From positions 1 to 39,442 of IMG/VR virus record IMGVR_UViG_3300033149_006091: a stretch of DNA of 39,442 nt. The stretch is one strand, 5' to 3'. The DNA comes from a virus. The notes below the pieces were generated by a model, which saw nothing but the letters and a program-made list of their open reading frames with translations, did not search any database and was not told where the DNA came from. The stretch's first letter is position 1; each line of letters opens with the position of its first letter. Below are positions 1,767 to 14,869 of the stretch, piece by piece. A program made the translations under genes and the position numbers.

Positions 1767-1971
1767 TCTTTCAAATGAAGAAAAAACTATTTTATATTGG
1801 AAATATAGAAATTCGGGTTTAACTTCTGAACAAGCAAATGAAAAATTAAACAAAATAAAAAAACATTTACGAAATTTGGTTTTAAATCTAATGAAAAAAA
1901 AGAAATCAAAGAAATATATTGAAATTAGATTTAAACAAGAATTTATAAATCTTCTAAATAATTATTCTTAA
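1756..1971 (+). CDS. Hypothetical small basic protein, 71 aa
   Basis: Not recognised. It is a lysine-rich protein (a KKKKSKK stretch near residues 47-53) with a helical N-terminal half, possibly nucleic-acid binding. It overlaps the preceding gene by 11 bases. Its 3' end runs 29 bases into the opposing RuvB-like gene, so the plus and minus transcription units meet tail to tail with overlapping coding ends. Confidence 0.55.
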   Translation: MRLSLSNEEKTILYWKYRNSGLTSEQANEKLNKIKKHLRNLVLNLMKKKKSKKYIEIRFKQEFINLLNNYS

Positions 1972-3115
1972 AACTTTCTTCAATTGAACAATCGTTAGAG
2001 AATGAATAAAAGTCAATTTCATCAGGAGAAATTCCTTCTACAATTTTATCTGCTATAAATTGGATTAACTCAAAATATTTATTTTTGAATTTTTCTTTGA
2101 TGTGAGGATTATCTTCTAAATATTGTTTAGCCAATTCTATTTCATCTAAAGTTTTTTCAGAATGTTCTTTTTCACTCTCTTTTTTCAATTCTTCATAAGA
2201 ATAATCTGCAAATTCAGGATTTAGTTCTCTTCCTCTGCTTGTTATTAAAATATAATTCTTTCTTATTAAGTCAGGTTCCAATTCATATTTTATATAATTT
2301 TCAGATTTTTTTAAATACAAAGAGAGTGTTCTTAAACTTGCTCTTTTTAGATTTTTTAATATATCTAAATATTTTTCCTGTAAATCAGATAAACCACTAT
2401 ACAAACTGATTTTTTTTAATCTAAATACTTTTATTAAACTTTCTTTATTTATTTCTCCATAAAGTTTAATCATATTCAATAAATTATTTAAAACTCTAAA
2501 ATTTGTGGTATAATTCAATAAATAATTTGCTATTTCTTCTGAACAGCCCCTTTTAATTAATACTTCCTTCATTTTATCATTTGAAAGTTCTGAAAATTCA
2601 ATCTGAATAAATCTTTCAATTAAAGGTTTAGGCAAAAGTTCGGGTTCAGTGGTTGTTCCAATAAACATCAAATTTAATTTTTTTCTTTCCCCATCAACAT
2701 AAATTTCATTATCTTGGATGCAAGGATAAATTATTTCTGCTACTTTAGAAGGTAGAGAATGAATTTCATCAATTAAAACAAGAGCATTATTTTTAGCATT
2801 TAAGATTAAATTTGTTATTTTGGTTTTAGTCATATTTCCGTTAATATAAATGAATGGTTTTCCTGTTTCGCAAGCCAACATTTTTGCTGTTGTGGTTTTG
2901 CCCGTTCCCTGTGTCCCATAAAACAATAAGTTTAATCTCTCTTTTTTGATTTTCTCTAAAATTAATTTAATAGTCTCTTTAAAATTATCTTCAAAAATCA
3001 AATCTTCAAAATAAGGAGAATTTAATATTTCTCCAACTTCCTCTTTTTCCTCTCGCAGGGCCTCACAAAGAGATTTAACCTCTGCGAAATATTTTTTATC
3101 TAACATTTTATACAT
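1943..3115 (-). CDS. RuvB-like Holliday-junction AAA+ ATPase
   Basis: 390 aa. AAA+ core: Walker A GTQGTGKT (67-74), Walker B LVLIDEIH (112-119), sensor-1 GTTT (153-156) and arginine finger in IERF (R168). The order of IYPCIQDN, the FIGTTTEPELLP stretch and a C-terminal winged helix with EPDLIRKNYILITSRGRELNP (about 280-300) matches bacterial RuvB, where EPYL...RTPRGR is diagnostic. RuvB drives branch migration of four-way DNA junctions. Cellular archaea normally lack RuvB and use Hjm/Hel308. About 85 extra acidic helical residues follow the RGR motif, where RuvB usually ends. The start overlaps the ligase stop by 16 bases, so the two genes are co-translated with the Ku cassette. A distant RFC-like loader is the alternative, but the C-terminal domain favours RuvB. 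Confidence 0.85.
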   Translation of the reverse strand: MYKMLDKKYFAEVKSLCEALREEKEEVGEILNSPYFEDLIFEDNFKETIKLILEKIKKERLNLLFYGTQGTGKTTTAKMLACETGKPFIYINGNMTKTKITNLILNAKNNALVLIDEIHSLPSKVAEIIYPCIQDNEIYVDGERKKLNLMFIGTTTEPELLPKPLIERFIQIEFSELSNDKMKEVLIKRGCSEEIANYLLNYTTNFRVLNNLLNMIKLYGEINKESLIKVFRLKKISLYSGLSDLQEKYLDILKNLKRASLRTLSLYLKKSENYIKYELEPDLIRKNYILITSRGRELNPEFADYSYEELKKESEKEHSEKTLDEIELAKQYLEDNPHIKEKFKNKYFELIQFIADKIVEGISPDEIDFYSFSNDCSIEESFKNNYLEDL

Positions 3116-3795
3116 TTAAAAGTAGCCATTCGTAATTTTCCTGACGAAGTTTCATTTAGATAATGAACTTCAATTTTGCATTTTCCTGTTTCATCTATTT
3201 TCTTTTTAACTAATTCAGCATTTTTTCCACTAATTTGAACAGCGATTTCTCCATCTGCCCTTATTCCTGCGGGATTAATCTCATAAGAATTGATTATCAC
3301 ATCTTTGCTTTTAATGTATTTAATCTTTAACCAATTATAACTTCTTCTCATTACATATCTGCTTAAAGGATTTTTGATGATTATTCCTTCCCAATTCTCT
3401 TTTTTTGCCCTTTCCCATAAATTTACTAAATCAAAAGTATTTTCCACTAAATCAACAGGCAATTCTTTTAAAAATTGAAGCCGTTTAATTAAAGGCAAAT
3501 CTCTTAAATCCTTTCCATTTATATTTAGAATATCAAACACATAATATTTTGCAGGATATTCTTTTTTTAACAATTTAGATTTTAATTTATTTTGAGTATG
3601 CACTCTTGCTTGAGTATGCTCAAAGGTGTCGCAGACAATCTCCCCGTCCAAAATACAATTTAATCCCTTTAATTTTTCAACTATTTCTGTGAATACTTTT
3701 GTCAGGTTAGTTGTTCCCCGCCCCTTTAAAATAATATTCTCTTTGCAAATAGCCAAACATCTAACTCCGTCAATTTTGCGACTACCGAGAGCCAT
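3100..3795 (-). CDS. ATP-dependent DNA ligase (N-terminus in another frame)
   Basis: 231 aa in this frame. It seals DNA nicks through a ligase-AMP intermediate. Visible motifs: I, KIDG (K7, the adenylated lysine); Ia-like KGRG (24-27); III, LDGEIV (49-54); IIIa, VFDIL (86-90); IV, EGIIIK (136-141); V, WLKIKY (155-160). An OB-fold follows, ending in GKLRMATFK. Motif I sits only seven residues from this start, so the usual lead-in is missing. It appears in the adjacent frame upstream (see 3781-3866). The gene is compact like NHEJ and viral ligases and lacks an N-terminal DNA-binding domain. It lies in one cassette with Ku, which suggests end joining. Whether it is active depends on how the frames are joined. 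Confidence 0.88.
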   Translation of the reverse strand: MALGSRKIDGVRCLAICKENIILKGRGTTNLTKVFTEIVEKLKGLNCILDGEIVCDTFEHTQARVHTQNKLKSKLLKKEYPAKYYVFDILNINGKDLRDLPLIKRLQFLKELPVDLVENTFDLVNLWERAKKENWEGIIIKNPLSRYVMRRSYNWLKIKYIKSKDVIINSYEINPAGIRADGEIAVQISGKNAELVKKKIDETGKCKIEVHYLNETSSGKLRMATFKCIKC

Positions 3796-3866
3796 CGGAG
3801 ATGATATTTTTTAATATCGCTTTCTTTTCCTTTCTCACATAACATCATCTTTTCCCGCCACCTCCT
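3781..3866 (-). other. Likely ligase N-terminus and frameshift site
   Basis: On the minus strand a full Shine-Dalgarno AGGAGGTG (3866-3859) precedes ATGATG (3848/3845). That frame encodes MMLCEKGKESDIKKY followed by HLRWLS and continues 41 codons without entering the ligase frame. Its content fits the segment that normally precedes ligase motif I, with HLRWLS running into SRKIDGVRC. The two frames differ by one base, and the join would lie at about 3781-3795. The ligase frame itself has no ribosome binding site and a stop codon six codons upstream. This is either an indel (real or a sequencing error) or a recoding site. Confidence 0.55.
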
Positions 3867-3892
3867 TTCAAAAACCTTCCAAACTTGTTCTT

Positions 3893-4390
3893 CTATCCAT
3901 TTTTAAACACCCTTATTTTAACAGAATAACCATATTTTCTTTTTAACAATTCTTTTAATTCTTCTGATTTCTTTTTAATTTCCAACTCAATAGGATTTCC
4001 CATCACAAAATTAGGATTTTTCCAATAATCCTTCTCTTTTTTCATATTTAATTCTTTTATAAGCCAATCTCCAAAATCTTTTGTAATCATCCAAGTATGT
4101 GTATGTTGTCCGTATTCGTCATAAAGAACCAATCCATAAACTAATCCATAAGGTTTATCTGAATATTGAACAATCCCTTCAATTTCTTTAAAAAAACATT
4201 CTTGTTTTTCGCAATGTGTCCAAAAATATAATTTATTATTTTTAAGATAAAAACCCAAACTCGTAAATCCTGCTTTTCGCATCTTTTTAATTTCTTCTTC
4301 CCACTCTTTTTTTAAATCTTCTTCTGTTTTAGGTTTCCATTCTAAATTTTCCTTTTCTATTTCAATCCCAAATAGAGTTTCCTGCCCCAT
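3893..4390 (-). CDS. Unknown protein of the Ku-ligase cassette, 165 aa
   Basis: Family not recognised. The N-terminus GQETLFGI resembles the archaeal PCNA-binding pattern Q-x-x-L-F-x-hydrophobic, which is suggestive but weak. The middle (FYLKNNKLYFWTHCEKQE and GLVYGLVLYDEYGQ) looks like a beta-rich domain, and the C-terminus is a charged helix. It lies between the 44-aa protein and the ligase. Its stop is about 45 bases upstream of the likely ligase start, and that spacer holds the ligase Shine-Dalgarno. Position suggests a repair accessory factor. The function is not known. Confidence 0.7.
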   Translation of the reverse strand: MGQETLFGIEIEKENLEWKPKTEEDLKKEWEEEIKKMRKAGFTSLGFYLKNNKLYFWTHCEKQECFFKEIEGIVQYSDKPYGLVYGLVLYDEYGQHTHTWMITKDFGDWLIKELNMKKEKDYWKNPNFVMGNPIELEIKKKSEELKELLKRKYGYSVKIRVFKNG

Positions 4391-4412
4391 TTTAAAAAAA
4401 AAGAAAAAAAAT
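4391..4412 (-). terminator. T-tract terminator after the Ku/44-aa pair
   Basis: Read on the minus strand, the spacer between the 44-aa gene and the next gene is two runs of eight to nine T separated by one C. Archaeal RNA polymerase terminates on such U-tracts without a hairpin, so partial termination here could set the ratio of Ku to ligase and RuvB. Confidence 0.45.
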
Positions 4413-4546
4413 TAATGAAAATTGTCCTCGTTTAAGTCCTCTAAAATTGCTTCTGCTTTTAACTCTTCTAATGTTTCTAAATCTTTTATTACTTGTCTTA
4501 TCTCGTGAAGTTCCATTTCAGTAAAACCCTTTAATTTAACTTCCAT
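4412..4546 (-). CDS. Hypothetical 44-aa protein downstream of Ku
   Basis: A short acidic helical protein (begins MEVKLKGFTEMELHE, ends LNEDNFH). No family is recognised. It starts one base after the Ku stop, so it is very likely translationally coupled to Ku. It is followed by a T-tract. It could be a Ku partner or simply a spacer protein, and nothing in the sequence decides this. Confidence 0.55.
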   Translation of the reverse strand: MEVKLKGFTEMELHEIRQVIKDLETLEELKAEAILEDLNEDNFH

Positions 4547-4547
4547 T

Positions 4548-5276
4548 TTAAAATTCTACTAACTCAATAGGGTTTATTTCTTCTTTTTCTGTTTTTACTT
4601 CTCTATCACTTAAAGCACTTTCTATAAGTTTATCTCTTGTATTTTCTATATTTTTTATCGGAATTTCTTGTTTTTCTAAAATCTTTTGAGCCATCTGTTT
4701 AATTACTTGCTTGTCTGTTTCAAAAACACTTGAATATCCTTTAATCTCTTGTATATCTCTAATTCTGTCAAAATGATAAACTCCCAATCCAATTAAACCA
4801 TTAAAATAAGGTTTTAAAATTACTATTTTCTCTTTTCCTCTTAAACTGATTAATCCAATAAAAGAGGTTTTGCTCTCTCTTAAACTTTCCCTGAAATAAC
4901 TAAACTTCATTAAGTTTCTTTCTGTTTTTCTCTTGTTTTTATCCACTTGAAAGCCGATAAACCAAACTGTTCCATCTTTAAATACTCCGTTTTCCTCTAA
5001 ATCTTTTATTCTTCCCAAAATTCTTAAATTTCCTGTTTCTACTTTTATTTTTTCCTCGTCTATTTTTTTGATTTTATCTCCTACTTCTAACCCTTTAAAG
5101 ATGTCCTCTCTTTCTAACTCTTTTCCACATTCAGAACAAACTTTTTTATAATTTACTCTTGCTTTACAGCAAACTGAAAACTGATTAAATCTTGTTTCGC
5201 TTTCTATTGCTGAATAAATACTTATTGGAATGTCTGAATTTCCAATTTCTATATCTACCTTTGAAAGTGCTTTCAT
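4548..5276 (-). CDS. ku: Ku DNA-end-binding protein (bacterial/archaeal type)
   Basis: 242 aa, within the usual bacterial Ku range. Ku homodimers encircle DNA ends and recruit a ligase in non-homologous end joining. Matches to the prokaryotic Ku core in order: IPISIYSAIE (16-25); a cysteine pair (36-37) and VCSECGKE (46-53) with EDIFKGLE after it, equal to the CxxCG and divKGyE region of bacterial Ku; RESLRES (129-135); ISLRGKEKIVILKPY (143-157); and YHFDRIRD (167-174), equal to the yadEvRD motif. The C-terminal tail (about 205-242) is acidic and helical, where bacterial Ku contacts LigD. The start codon overlaps the stop of the 55-aa gene upstream (ATGA). A DNA ligase and a RuvB-like ATPase follow in the same transcription unit. 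Confidence 0.92.
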   Translation of the reverse strand: MKALSKVDIEIGNSDIPISIYSAIESETRFNQFSVCCKARVNYKKVCSECGKELEREDIFKGLEVGDKIKKIDEEKIKVETGNLRILGRIKDLEENGVFKDGTVWFIGFQVDKNKRKTERNLMKFSYFRESLRESKTSFIGLISLRGKEKIVILKPYFNGLIGLGVYHFDRIRDIQEIKGYSSVFETDKQVIKQMAQKILEKQEIPIKNIENTRDKLIESALSDREVKTEKEEINPIELVEF

Positions 5277-5440
5277 TCTAATGCTTTAATGTCGTTATCT
5301 GCAACTCTTATAAATCTGTCTTTAATTTCTTGTGGTAACTCACTGCTGTCTGTTAATGCTTTAAATTCCTCTAAAATTTTAATTCTTGCTGTCTTATCTT
5401 CAAATAACTTGCTCTTTTTATAAAGTTCCTCTAATTCCAT
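5273..5440 (-). CDS. Hypothetical 55-aa protein upstream of Ku
   Basis: An acidic helical protein beginning MELEELYKKSKLFEDK. Family not recognised. It has a strong leader (AATTGAAAGGGGGTTAAAATG) shared with the genes starting at 5902 and 6821. Its stop overlaps the Ku start codon, so Ku expression probably depends on its translation. It may be a small Ku partner, but that is inference from coupling only. Confidence 0.65.
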   Translation of the reverse strand: MELEELYKKSKLFEDKTARIKILEEFKALTDSSELPQEIKDRFIRVADNDIKALE

Positions 5441-5482: not shown

Positions 5483-5902
5483 TTATAATTTAAAATTTTT
5501 AAACTCTTTTACTAAATTTATTACTTTTTTGTCGCAATCAGCACATAGGATTTTTAAAGTCATTTCTTCTAACTTCTTGTTTAATTTCTCTTTTAATTCT
5601 TTTTCTATGTCATAACTTTCAACCTCTATTTTCTCTGCATATTCTATAAAAGAAGCACCCACCTTATCAGCATATTCTCTTAAATCTTTTTCTGCCTTTT
5701 CTATTTTTTTTAATATTTTGTTTTTTTCCTTTTTTAAAGTAAATAAATGTTTTAATTTCTGTTTGGTTTCACTCAATTTGTTTATTTCTCTTGTTTTTGT
5801 GTTTGCTATTTTTTTTGCTTTCTTTTCTATTTCTCTCTCTTTGCTTATCGCAATTTTGTTTAAAATCCTGATGACTTGCTCTTTTTCGCTTTTGTTTAAC
5901 AT
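5483..5902 (-). CDS. Hypothetical coiled-coil protein, 139 aa
   Basis: A highly charged, lysine- and glutamate-rich protein, helical over residues 1-115 with heptad-like leucine/isoleucine spacing. It ends in a segment holding CADCDKK (about 119-125), which could bind a metal or pair in a dimer. No enzyme motif is visible. The leader AAAGGAGGTTTAAAATG is an excellent ribosome binding site. It is part of the minus-strand early block upstream of Ku. Function unknown. Confidence 0.75.
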   Translation of the reverse strand: MLNKSEKEQVIRILNKIAISKEREIEKKAKKIANTKTREINKLSETKQKLKHLFTLKKEKNKILKKIEKAEKDLREYADKVGASFIEYAEKIEVESYDIEKELKEKLNKKLEEMTLKILCADCDKKVINLVKEFKNFKL

Positions 5903-9118: not shown

Positions 9119-9283
9119 ATGAACATAGAGAATTTAAAAGAAGAATTAATAAATAAAAGAAGCCAACTCTTATACACTTTGTGTGAAGATGAATCAGTCT
9201 TTCACCCCCAAGTAATACATCAATTAGTAATAGATTTGCGCTCAATAACTAAAATATTAAAAATGATAAATGGAAAAAAATAA
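9119..9283 (+). CDS. Small helical protein before the chaperonin, 54 aa
   Basis: Begins MNIENLKEELINKRS and is predicted as two helices. The AAGGAG ribosome binding site eight bases before the ATG is one of the clearest in the region, which supports a real gene. Its last 14 bases overlap the chaperonin start, so the two are probably coupled. The helix-turn-helix hairpin pattern loosely recalls Spo0E-like mini-proteins, but the resemblance is too weak to name. Function unknown. Confidence 0.65.
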   Translation: MNIENLKEELINKRSQLLYTLCEDESVFHPQVIHQLVIDLRSITKILKMINGKK

Positions 9284-10694
9284 AAATTACATACAGGTTG
9301 GAATTAATTTTGCTAATTTAGTTAAATCTACGCTTGGGCCTAAAGGAATGAATAAGATGGTTGTCTCCGACAAGGACTCAAAGCATTTAGTGGTCTTGAC
9401 AAACGATGGAGCCACTATCCTAAAAAATGTCAAAACAGACAACCCAATCACAGAGCTTTTCAAAAATTTGGCAGTAGGGCAAGAAGAAGCCTCCGGCGAT
9501 GGCACAACCACCGCAAGCATTTTAGCCGGACAATTACTTGAAAATGCCTTAACTCTTCTCGAAAAGGGGGTTCATCAAACCACCATAATAACTGGGTATA
9601 GTATTGCAATGATAGAAGCAATAAATTACTTAAATCAAGTCAAAGAGAAAGCTCCAACCGAAAATATCATTAAGACTTCATTCGGAAGTAAAATCCCAAA
9701 AGAATTATCCGAAAAGCTTACCAATCTACTTAAAGATTTATCTAAAAAAGAATTAAATTTATTAAGAATTTTCAAAAGACCCAACTCTAATCCGCTTAAT
9801 ACAAAAATAATCAATGGGTATGCATTTGAAGGTTATACTATAAATGACAGAATGGAGAGTGAAACTAACGGAAAAATTGCTGTTCTTGATTTCAGAGCCA
9901 ATATGGATAATACTAAAATTCAGGTGGATAAAGCAGAAGAGTGGGAGAAAGCCAATAAAGTAGATAGAGAATACAGAAGAAAGATTGTCAATAAACTTAA
10001 AGAATTAAATGTTAAATGCGTTTTTATGTCTGATACTAACCCCGAATTTGAAGCTTACTTGACCGAAAGCCAAATTACCGGCATCACAGTATGGGAAAGG
10101 CCAATTTTGGATAATATTTGCTACTCAACAGGAGCGATAGCAATTAGTTCTCCAGATGATTTGACTGAAAATCATTTAGGGAAAGGGAAAGTCAAATACA
10201 TAAAACCCAAACAGATTTATATTGAAGGAAACGGAAAAACTCTGATACTTTGTGGTTCTACTCTCCAGACACTTGACGAAACAGAAAGAGCCTTAGATGA
10301 TGTAGTTAATTTGCTACTCAAAAATGATGAATATTGTGTTTTAGGAGCCGGTTCAATAGAAGTTGAATTGTCTTTGCATTTAACCGAGTTTGCCAAACAA
10401 GTCGGCGGAAAAGAGCAAATTGCTATTGAAAAGTTCGCGGAAGCGTTAGAAATAATCCCTCTCGCAATAGCAGAAAATGCTGGTTTAGATGCTGTTGAGA
10501 TTTTAACTGCCTTAAAGACCCTCCACTCAAAAGGACAAAGAATGGGAGTAGACATAATTAAAAAAGTAAGTTGTCCAAGAGAGAGGGGCATCTTTGAGCC
10601 AGTGATAATGAAAATTAATGCAATTAGTTCAGCAGTAAATGTAGCCAACTTGATACTTAAACTTGACGAGGTTTTAATCGGAGATGAAAAATGA
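9270..10694 (+). CDS. Group II chaperonin (thermosome-type), short form
   Basis: 474 aa, against roughly 545 for cellular thermosome subunits. It is an ATP-driven folding chamber of the Cpn60/TCP-1 group II family. Diagnostic motifs: TLGPKG (21-26), NDGATIL (45-51), GDGTTT (76-81, with the catalytic aspartate), VLGAGSIEVELS (about 356-367, GGGA-E like) and NAGLDAVEIL (about 404-413). The segment EEWEKANKVDREYRRKIVNK fits the apical helical protrusion that forms the built-in lid. The missing residues are mostly at the two ends and in the intermediate/apical region. Virus-borne chaperonins usually fold capsid or other virion proteins. Whether this one makes its own ring or mixes with host subunits cannot be told. 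It is followed by the E1-like genes with an 11-base overlap. Confidence 0.93.
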   Translation: MEKNKNYIQVGINFANLVKSTLGPKGMNKMVVSDKDSKHLVVLTNDGATILKNVKTDNPITELFKNLAVGQEEASGDGTTTASILAGQLLENALTLLEKGVHQTTIITGYSIAMIEAINYLNQVKEKAPTENIIKTSFGSKIPKELSEKLTNLLKDLSKKELNLLRIFKRPNSNPLNTKIINGYAFEGYTINDRMESETNGKIAVLDFRANMDNTKIQVDKAEEWEKANKVDREYRRKIVNKLKELNVKCVFMSDTNPEFEAYLTESQITGITVWERPILDNICYSTGAIAISSPDDLTENHLGKGKVKYIKPKQIYIEGNGKTLILCGSTLQTLDETERALDDVVNLLLKNDEYCVLGAGSIEVELSLHLTEFAKQVGGKEQIAIEKFAEALEIIPLAIAENAGLDAVEILTALKTLHSKGQRMGVDIIKKVSCPRERGIFEPVIMKINAISSAVNVANLILKLDEVLIGDEK

Positions 10695-11265
10695 ACTAAT
10701 AAATTTTGAACTTAAAGTAAAAGAGGAATTTGAAAACGGAAAATTGCCGTATCCTATACATTTCTCGGGAGGGAACGAATCTCAATTAATCAAAATATTC
10801 AAAAAGATAAAAAAAGAGGACTGGGTTTTTTCTACACATCGTTCTCATTATCATTATCTTCTTCACAAAAAAAATCCAAAAAAATTAATGAAGATGATTC
10901 AAAATGGAAAATCTATGCATATTTTTGATAAAAAATTCTTTACAAGTTCAATCGTGGCTGGGACCTGTGCAATCGCTGTCGGAGTGGCATTAGCCCTAAA
11001 ACTAAAAAAATCAAGAAACAAGGTTTGGTGTTTTGTTGGAGACGGAGCAGAGGATTCAGGACATTTCTATGAGGCGGTAAAATATTCAATAGGACACAAT
11101 TTGCCTATAACCTTTATAATAGAAGATAATGGAATGTCTGTTGATACCCCAAAAAAATCAAGGCATAATTATGATGTCAAGTGGGATAAAAAAGTAATAA
11201 GATACAAATATAAGAGAAAATTTCCTCATGTTCAAACAGGAAAAATTGTGGAGGCTTACTTATGA
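10684..11265 (+). CDS. Thiamine-diphosphate enzyme, E1 alpha-like subunit
   Basis: 193 aa, clearly shorter than the usual 320-370 aa of 2-oxoacid dehydrogenase E1 alpha. It has the ThDP-binding half: DWVFSTHRSHYHYLL (46-60), GKSMHI (75-80), an IVAGTCAIAVGVALA stretch (90-104), and the ThDP/magnesium motif GDGAEDSG (119-126) ending in EDNG (147-150), the GDG-x(~26)-DN rule. Such subunits bind the cofactor's diphosphate and pair with a beta subunit carrying the pyrimidine domain, here the next gene, which overlaps by four bases. The substrate is unknown. The C-terminal regulatory and lipoyl-domain contacts of true E1 alpha are missing, so a stand-alone carboligase or decarboxylase is as likely as a dehydrogenase component. 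Confidence 0.85.
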   Translation: MKNELINFELKVKEEFENGKLPYPIHFSGGNESQLIKIFKKIKKEDWVFSTHRSHYHYLLHKKNPKKLMKMIQNGKSMHIFDKKFFTSSIVAGTCAIAVGVALALKLKKSRNKVWCFVGDGAEDSGHFYEAVKYSIGHNLPITFIIEDNGMSVDTPKKSRHNYDVKWDKKVIRYKYKRKFPHVQTGKIVEAYL

Positions 11266-11711
11266 AAATTAAAAAAGAGATGGAGAAACTGAGCAAAGAT
11301 AAAAAAGTTTACTTTATCGGGTATAACTTAAAATTTGGAAGTAGAAATTATGGGGCTTTAGAGAACGTTCCGGAGAACAAAATTCTCGAAATGCCTATTG
11401 CAGAAAATTTAATGACTGGCATAGCAATCGGAATGGCGTTAGAAGGATTTAAGCCAGTTTTAATCTTTGAGAGGCACGATTTTATATTGAATGCTCTCGA
11501 CCAGTTGATAAATCATTTACACAAACTCCCAGAAATGAGCGATGGACTTTTTGACCCAAAAGTTATGATTAGAGCAAAAGTTGGACACACCAAACCATTC
11601 CATCCGGGACCTCAGCACATCCAAGATTTTACTTGGATACTTAAAAAATTTTTTCCCGTGGAAATAAACCCAAAAAAATATAAATTCGATAAAAAAATAA
11701 TTATAGAATGA
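11262..11711 (+). CDS. Thiamine-diphosphate enzyme, E1 beta-like pyrimidine domain
   Basis: 149 aa. This is the pyrimidine-binding domain of the transketolase/E1 beta family without the C-terminal swivelling domain that normally completes about 330 aa. Key features: EMPIAENLMTGIAIGMALEG (43-62), in which E48 is the glutamate that activates thiamine; ERHDF (70-74); NALDQLINH (77-85); and a GHT...HPGPQHIQ stretch (about 118-132) equivalent to the conserved G-H-S-Q segment. Together with the preceding gene it makes a minimal heterodimeric active site. The ATGA overlap on both sides ties it to the E1 alpha-like and glycosyltransferase genes, suggesting a shared pathway for a sugar or an acyl unit. 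Confidence 0.85.
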   Translation: MKIKKEMEKLSKDKKVYFIGYNLKFGSRNYGALENVPENKILEMPIAENLMTGIAIGMALEGFKPVLIFERHDFILNALDQLINHLHKLPEMSDGLFDPKVMIRAKVGHTKPFHPGPQHIQDFTWILKKFFPVEINPKKYKFDKKIIIE

Positions 11712-14286: not shown

Positions 14287-14405
14287 GAGTAAAAAAGAAG
14301 TGTGATAGGTGTGGAATAATGAGAAATGAATTGACTTTTTATAGAGGACAATTTCTTTGTGGTAAATGTAGAAAAAGCGGGAGAATAATCAAAAGCAAAA
14401 AATGA
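14283..14405 (+). CDS. Zinc-ribbon mini-protein, 40 aa
   Basis: Two CxxC pairs (CDRCG at residues 7-11 and CGKCRKS at 26-32) in a very basic protein. It is probably a single zinc ribbon that binds nucleic acid or a partner. It overlaps the radical SAM gene by four bases and the nuclease gene by four. The same design as the 46-aa protein at 701-841. Confidence 0.7.
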   Translation: MRVKKKCDRCGIMRNELTFYRGQFLCGKCRKSGRIIKSKK

Positions 14406-14869
14406 ACACAAGAGCAAAAGGAATGAGGTTTGAAGCACAAGTCAGGAAAGACTTAGAGTCAAGAGGCTTTATAATTAGCAAGTGGCAGAATAATGTTGAA
14501 TTATCTAATAAAAAAGAGAAAATAGAGGGGAGATTAGTCCCAGCAAGACAGGGAAAATACAGACTAACAAGCACAGGATTTCCAGATTTTATTATTTTTA
14601 GAAGGATAGAACTTCAGGGACACGGAAGACACAAGTTCCCAAAGAAAATTAGAATAAGAGAGGTTTGGGGGTATAGTGAGATTTCTTTTCCACAGCCAAT
14701 GTATGCTATTGTCGGGGTAGAATGTAAATTCAATGGTTACCTGTCAAAAGAGGAAAAAGCAAAATGTGAATGGCTTTTAGAGAATAATATCTTCAGTAAA
14801 ATACTTATAGCTAAAAAAGGGAAAGGTGGAATAGTCTATGAAGAATGGGACGCAAAAAGAGAAAATTAG
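14402..14869 (+). CDS. PD-(D/E)XK (VRR-NUC-like) nuclease
   Basis: 155 aa. The restriction-nuclease fold is seen as GMRFEAQVRKDLESRGF (7-23, E11), STGFPDFIIF (57-66, D62) and IVGVECKFN (103-111, E107 and K109), followed by LSKEEKAKCEWL. Together these give the E...PD...ExK catalytic set. Families with this spacing include VRR-NUC and Holliday-junction resolvase-like enzymes. It may resolve replication or packaging intermediates. Standing next to a DNA methyltransferase, it could instead be a restriction partner, though it is small and lacks an obvious recognition domain. Confidence 0.8.
   Translation: MNTRAKGMRFEAQVRKDLESRGFIISKWQNNVELSNKKEKIEGRLVPARQGKYRLTSTGFPDFIIFRRIELQGHGRHKFPKKIRIREVWGYSEISFPQPMYAIVGVECKFNGYLSKEEKAKCEWLLENNIFSKILIAKKGKGGIVYEEWDAKREN

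Follow-up and report, generated by a model that had tools for sequence, protein, structure and literature searches.

A putative Ku–ligase end-joining cassette in a head-tailed virus with a likely archaeal host

What use would a virus have for a Ku protein of its own, with a DNA ligase encoded close beside it? The question is raised by IMGVR_UViG_3300033149_006091, one virus record with a length of 39,442 bases, the whole of which is referred to below as the window. A minus-strand block at positions 3100–5440 of the window encodes Ku, a compact ATP-dependent DNA ligase, and three small proteins. Ku and ligase domains are present in the encoded proteins, the two genes lie together in a second, diverged virus designated G001 as well, and both are absent as a block from a third virus, G1037. 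We consider it probable that the block represents a virus-encoded minimal end-joining cassette, which most likely acts on the DNA ends of the virus itself. From right to left, the block comprises the following open reading frames (ORFs):

5273–5440, minus strand: ORF of 55 amino acids whose stop overlaps the Ku start by ATGA; a 51-amino acid ORF of marginal similarity lies in the same place in G001
4548–5276, minus strand: Ku, 242 amino acids, assigned by PF02735, hhalign, and alignment with cellular and phage Ku; 55% identical to the Ku of G001
4412–4546, minus strand: ORF of 44 amino acids directly after Ku (gap of 1 nucleotide), with no counterpart in G001
3893–4390, minus strand: protein of 165 amino acids that shares its ends with a 47-amino acid ORF upstream of the G001 ligase, where the middle part of about 115 amino acids is absent
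3100–3848, minus strand: ATP-dependent DNA ligase gene, with motifs I–V in 3100–3795, N-terminal residues at about 3798–3848 in another frame, and a break at about 3778–3797

A preliminary description of the locus had presented these genes as one minus-strand unit in which the 55-amino acid ORF overlaps Ku through ATGA and the 44-amino acid ORF is coupled to Ku; the arrangement is as described.

Ku and ligase of the window

The same description had named the product of 4548–5276 a prokaryotic-type Ku, and Pfam, PHROG, PDB sequences, and profile–profile comparison all agree on this point. The protein matches PF02735 with 58.8 bits (E = 8.7e-16; cut-off 25), the Ku of G001 with 49.2 bits. Profile–profile alignment with archaeal and bacterial Ku by hhalign extends over residues 1–227 (99.1%, E = 6.7e-19), and the PDB Ku chains 9vnq and 8v53 are matched as well. 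The match to PHROG 4873, annotated as Ku-like DNA end binding, is partial and weak (residues 1–77, E = 2e-9). With 72.1 bits, the protein does not reach the equivalog cut-off of TIGR02772 (150 bits); as judged by these scores, it is a divergent Ku rather than the standard bacterial equivalog. Models built with AlphaFold2 from two-sequence alignments, relatives being few, had predicted local distance difference test (pLDDT) values of 31.5 for Ku and 49.8 for the G001 ligase, which are too low for use.

Two features of the viral Ku proteins may be noted. Four conserved cysteines in the core domain (C36, C37, C47, and C50) form a CC...CxxC set that is kept in viral Ku. The C-terminal motif DLM.AL.ASL, which is present in the aligned Ku of archaea, bacteria, and Omega- and Corndog-type mycobacteriophages, is absent from both viral proteins, whose tails are degenerate. 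In Bacillus subtilis, the minimal C-terminus of Ku is required for binding of LigD (PMC8656161). Absence of the motif at the place of this contact therefore makes use of the cassette's own ligase likelier than recruitment of a host LigD, and suggests that viral Ku is independent of the latter.

The ligase ORF at 3100–3795 (231 amino acids) matches PF01068 with 81.2 bits (E = 1.1e-22; cut-off 26.2), compared with 85.5 bits for the G001 ligase, and PHROG 114 ligase with E = 2.5e-27. Motifs I (KIDGVR), III (LDGEIV), IIIa (YYVFDIL), IV (EGIIIK), and V (WLKIKY) can be read directly from the translation. The adenylation core that had been claimed for this ORF is thus in place; the limits given for the ligase did not hold, inasmuch as an interruption of the frame leaves the N-terminus outside the ORF. 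A ribosome-binding-like sequence, GGAGGT, precedes an ATG at 3848 that is out of frame with motif I, and no such sequence is found ahead of the internal ATG at 3795. The product that begins at 3848, MMLCEKGKESDIKKYHL, matches the N-terminus of the G001 ligase (54% over 22 amino acids). The stretch between KYHL and KIDG measures 20 nucleotides in the window and 21 in G001, which places the interruption at about 3778–3797. Position 3795 is therefore very probably not the true start of the ligase. Apart from this one interruption there are no further breaks, and the protein is 57–58% identical to the intact 260-amino acid ligase of G001. The single-nucleotide offset may be either a sequence error of the metagenome assembly or a real break.

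Related viruses with and without the cassette

When the viral Ku and ligase were used as queries against IMG/VR, one other virus was recovered, G001 (IMGVR_UViG_3300045118_000151, 42.9 kb), in which Ku is followed by ORFs of 119, 52, and 47 amino acids, the ligase, and a gene for an AAA+ ATPase. Identities between G001 and the window are 55% for Ku, 57–58% for the ligase, and 52% for the ATPase. These values are comparable to those of the terminase (57.5%), portal (53%), and chaperonin (50%), which indicates that Ku and ligase evolve at the pace of core genes.

Further relatives were found through the head protein; besides G1037, they are fragments that do not cover the cassette site. In the window, the site is bounded by two genes that serve as landmarks in the comparison:

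1943–3115, minus strand: RuvB-like AAA+ ATPase, whose gene follows the ligase immediately and overlaps its end
5483–5902, minus strand: helical protein of 139 amino acids, the upstream flank of the cassette; 69% identical in G1037, where it adjoins the AAA+ gene

In G1037 (29 kb), the homologue of the 139-amino acid protein is followed after 54 nucleotides by the ATPase gene (66% identity), and the whole block of 55-amino acid ORF, Ku, 44-amino acid ORF, 165-amino acid protein, and ligase is absent. Neither Ku nor ligase was found elsewhere in its 29-kb record. A tree of head and portal proteins places G1037 on the side of the window, with G001 on the other. Given this position, the simplest reading is that the common ancestor already had the cassette and that G1037 lost it in one piece; two separate acquisitions at one and the same site could also account for the pattern, though this is less likely. 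As the other relatives are fragments without the site, one of three informative genomes lacks the cassette. Judged by their distribution, Ku and ligase behave as a single cassette that is optional in the group. A weak Ku match in another record, G966, was set aside because the 282-amino acid protein bears no clear likeness to viral Ku.

The small ORFs differ between the window and G001, and the earlier suggestion that their products are new partners in non-homologous end joining (NHEJ) is therefore unsupported. The 44-amino acid protein is without a counterpart, the similarity of the 55-amino acid protein to the 51-amino acid ORF is marginal (shuffle p = 0.04), and the 165-amino acid protein is conserved at its ends only. 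These ends, comprising the first 20 residues (with QxxLFGIEIEK) and the last 30, make up the entire 47-amino acid ORF of G001; they are the exception among the small ORFs and, on the strength of this conservation, deserve a look. The N-terminal QxxLFGIEIEK of this protein, which is encoded just before the ligase in both viruses (window 3893–4390; L002:7811-7954), resembles a sliding-clamp-binding peptide.

Comparison with other Ku systems and possible function

Among cellular archaea, Ku was found in 63 of 393, 4 of 227, and 24 of 398 sampled genomes of three phyla. Of 54 sampled loci (L077–L130), 50 have a ligase ORF as the neighbor of Ku, mostly overlapping or abutting it, which identifies Ku–ligase neighbors as a functional theme. 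That Ku-based NHEJ is rare in cellular archaea, as the preliminary description had it, is true overall and needs qualification for the phylum with 63 Ku-bearing genomes, where a ligase nearly always adjoins. Ku is also commoner in this phylum than the literature figure of 10 in 243 archaea would suggest.

The viral block resembles cellular loci for archaeo-prokaryotic NHEJ, such as that of Methanocella paludicola, in that Ku lies beside a stand-alone ligase. The NHEJ system of M. paludicola includes a polymerase and a phosphoesterase (PMC4797286); neither was detected among the viral proteins scanned with Pfam, a scan that did not cover every small ORF. Viral Ku is 25–30% identical to cellular archaeal Ku and is closest to that of the phylum in which Ku is commonest. 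In a tree, the two viral proteins form a joint branch of 3.6 changes per site that is not nested in any cellular group, although its exact root is uncertain, the branches being long. The viral ligases (231–260 amino acids) are shorter than cellular Ku-adjacent ligases (about 300–435 amino acids) and fall outside their clade. By these measures, neither of the two viral genes is closely related to the NHEJ genes of cellular archaea.

How do other viruses use Ku? When 50,697 phage records were searched with an archaeal Ku query, 82 were found to carry a recognizable Ku, and all except one of these are Mycobacterium phages. Eleven viral Ku proteins have been described for actinobacteriophages, from mycobacteriophages and a Streptomyces phage only (PMC11936186). 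In work cited in PMC7719229 and PMC8068969, the mycobacteriophages Omega and Corndog are reported to combine phage Ku with host LigD in genome circularization. Ku of the Omega and Corndog type (PHROG 4873) shares with the window a virus-borne prokaryotic Ku core, a neighborhood of small genes, and a presumed action on viral DNA ends. In contrast to the window, no ligase lies within about 3 kb of Ku in the two mycobacteriophages inspected. Mycobacteriophage Ku also differs in its bacterial host, in its use of host LigD as cited in PMC7719229, and in retention of the ASL-type C-terminal motif that the window Ku lacks.

More cell-like Ku proteins are encoded on at least 56 IMG/VR contigs, of which 11 have an ATP-dependent ligase within about 4 kb and 5 of these 11 a portal gene. 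Virus-borne Ku with a ligase is thus not unique to the window. These contigs (for example, L149, L161, L162, L173, and L181) are classified as viral and resemble the window in having Ku near an ATP-dependent ligase; they differ from it in that their Ku is at best 28–58% identical to archaeal or bacterial Ku, their contexts look mostly bacterial, and their ligases are of other types. Some may be host flanks of proviruses. Across L144, L149, L161, L162, L173, L181, L189, and L198, the ligases close to Ku belong to several unrelated types, and some of the contigs carry portal genes. We found no description of Ku with a ligase in archaeal viruses in the literature, and for these viruses the cassette is apparently unreported.

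In the mechanism that we propose, a Ku homodimer would bind and bridge double-stranded DNA ends, and the adjoining compact ligase would seal them; the polymerase and phosphoesterase that belong to full prokaryotic NHEJ would not take part. Both proteins would be made early, from the leftward unit. The substrate would be the DNA ends of the virus, whether in closing the linear genome after entry or in mending breaks. Circularization is the first candidate because of the reported closure of the Omega and Corndog genomes by Ku and host LigD, and by this analogy it is slightly favored; repair of breaks made by host defense is nearly as likely.

Several observations weigh against a dedicated end-joining function. 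Only two viruses with this cassette are known. The ligase frame of the window is interrupted by a single-nucleotide offset just before motif I, whereas the G001 copy is one open frame. Neither ligase reaches the cut-off of TIGR02779, the LIG domain of LigD (115.6 bits for the window and 122.4 for G001, compared with 227.75). The top model for the viral ligase is an NHEJ ligase, and control phage ligases that occur without Ku have the same top model; the match was accordingly dropped as evidence for an NHEJ ligase, and the viral ligase may be a general one. In the ligase tree, moreover, the viral pair lies outside the clade of cellular Ku-adjacent NHEJ ligases (Shimodaira–Hasegawa-like approximate likelihood ratio test, SH-aLRT, 93; long branches).

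A ligase that is not specifically NHEJ-like by profile control or tree would suit the main rival explanation, in which the role of Ku is to guard the ends of linear viral DNA against nucleases as it enters, and the ligase is an ordinary enzyme of replication or nick sealing that happens to be encoded next to it. The Gam protein of phage Mu, proposed to bind and protect Mu DNA ends (PMC1378119), provides a precedent, and the degenerate partner-binding motif at the C-terminus of viral Ku is in keeping with such a role. However, Ku and ligase are jointly missing as a block from G1037 while the adjoining AAA+ gene stays, the same Ku–ligase neighborhood recurs in G001, and such neighbors are the rule in cellular archaea, all of which renders simple end protection unlikely. 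The frame break before motif I and the absence of a ribosome-binding-like sequence before the ATG at 3795 could also mean that the window ligase is a decaying pseudogene and that only Ku is active, together with a host ligase, in the manner of mycobacterial phage Ku and host LigD (as cited in PMC7719229). We regard this reading as quite improbable: the remaining ORF is open, without another break, and keeps motifs I–V and its 57–58% identity to the G001 ligase; an offset of one nucleotide may stem from a sequence error in the metagenome assembly; and viral Ku is without the LigD-binding type of C-terminus. That Ku is cargo that came from cells and plays no part in the life cycle of the virus would agree with its optional presence in the group and its absence from G1037, but the two viral proteins share a very long branch outside every cellular group and have been retained at core-gene pace across the divergence of the window and G001, which leaves this explanation very little room.

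The end-joining cassette, which we prefer, invites a bolder proposal that we advance tentatively and with some doubt. A lineage of head-tailed archaeal viruses may have kept its own two-protein NHEJ since before the split of its two main branches. Its Ku would have lost the tail that binds LigD and would cooperate exclusively with a miniature ligase dedicated to it, so that end joining, and with it genome closure, would be independent of the repair equipment of the host. If true, the self-contained pair would rank as the smallest NHEJ unit in nature that contains a divergent Ku, and viruses could bring end joining to hosts that are mostly without it. Relatives with and without the cassette offer a natural contrast for testing what Ku does for the virus.

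Neighboring genes and the likely host

The window encodes a terminase large subunit, portal, HK97-type major head protein, head–tail adaptor, and tape measure protein, all genes of head-tailed viruses. The remainder includes a MazE/AbrB-like DNA-binding protein, glycosyltransferases, and radical SAM proteins. One further gene bears on the host:

9270–10694: group II chaperonin of 474 amino acids, shorter than cellular ones, matched by thermosome models at about 5e-88

The chaperonin is conserved in G001, G1040, and G1042 and is approximately 30% identical to cellular thermosomes. Its relatives at this level are proteins of Asgard archaea, Methanosarcinaceae, and Methanobacteriaceae, and a tree left the virus unplaced among them. 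Group II chaperonins are archaeal and eukaryotic proteins. Thermosomes have, in addition, been described as genes of archaeal viruses (PMC8276007), and an archaeal host is therefore likely for the window virus. The earlier attribution to an archaeon is likely on this basis, and attempts to name the lineage gave no match. The window terminase had no match in a search of genome contigs for the host. A terminase model likewise gave none in 227 Asgard genomes and 398 genomes from the phylum of a Bathyarchaeota metagenome-assembled genome, a search without a positive control whose empty result proves nothing.

The AAA+ ATPase that flanks the cassette matches PF00004, RuvB_N, and RuvB_C above cut-off and the RuvB NCBIfam model with 95.5 bits, below the cut-off of 282. 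A pattern search of IMG/VR for close relatives of the protein found none. The product of this gene (1943–3115) has the winged helix of RuvB_C, and the virus that encodes it is probably archaeal; archaea are not known to use RuvB. The ATPase genes of the window and of G1037, which has no cassette, are whole. The G001 gene (L002:8702-10733) is split at Walker A: the N-terminal half ends in an intein start (CMPKGTLIKTPNG...), a free HNH ORF follows, and an intein C-terminus (...NGIITHN|S) is then joined to the remaining ATPase. The arrangement resembles a fractured gene that carries a split intein. The 139-amino acid protein on the other flank has a Mu Gam-like Pfam match (E = 0.003, under cut-off) that was not used; the protein is of the coiled-coil type and is kept in G1037, which has no Ku.

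A 155-amino acid protein encoded at 14402–14869 has a GFPD...VECK pattern like that of PD-(D/E)XK nucleases and is possibly Hjc-like; it has no Pfam or PHROG match and is conserved in G001 and G1037. At 10684–11711, two small ORFs resemble the alpha and beta halves of a pyruvate dehydrogenase E1 or transketolase-like enzyme. They are followed by two radical SAM proteins, one of which is nearest to maturases of tungsten-cofactor oxidoreductases.

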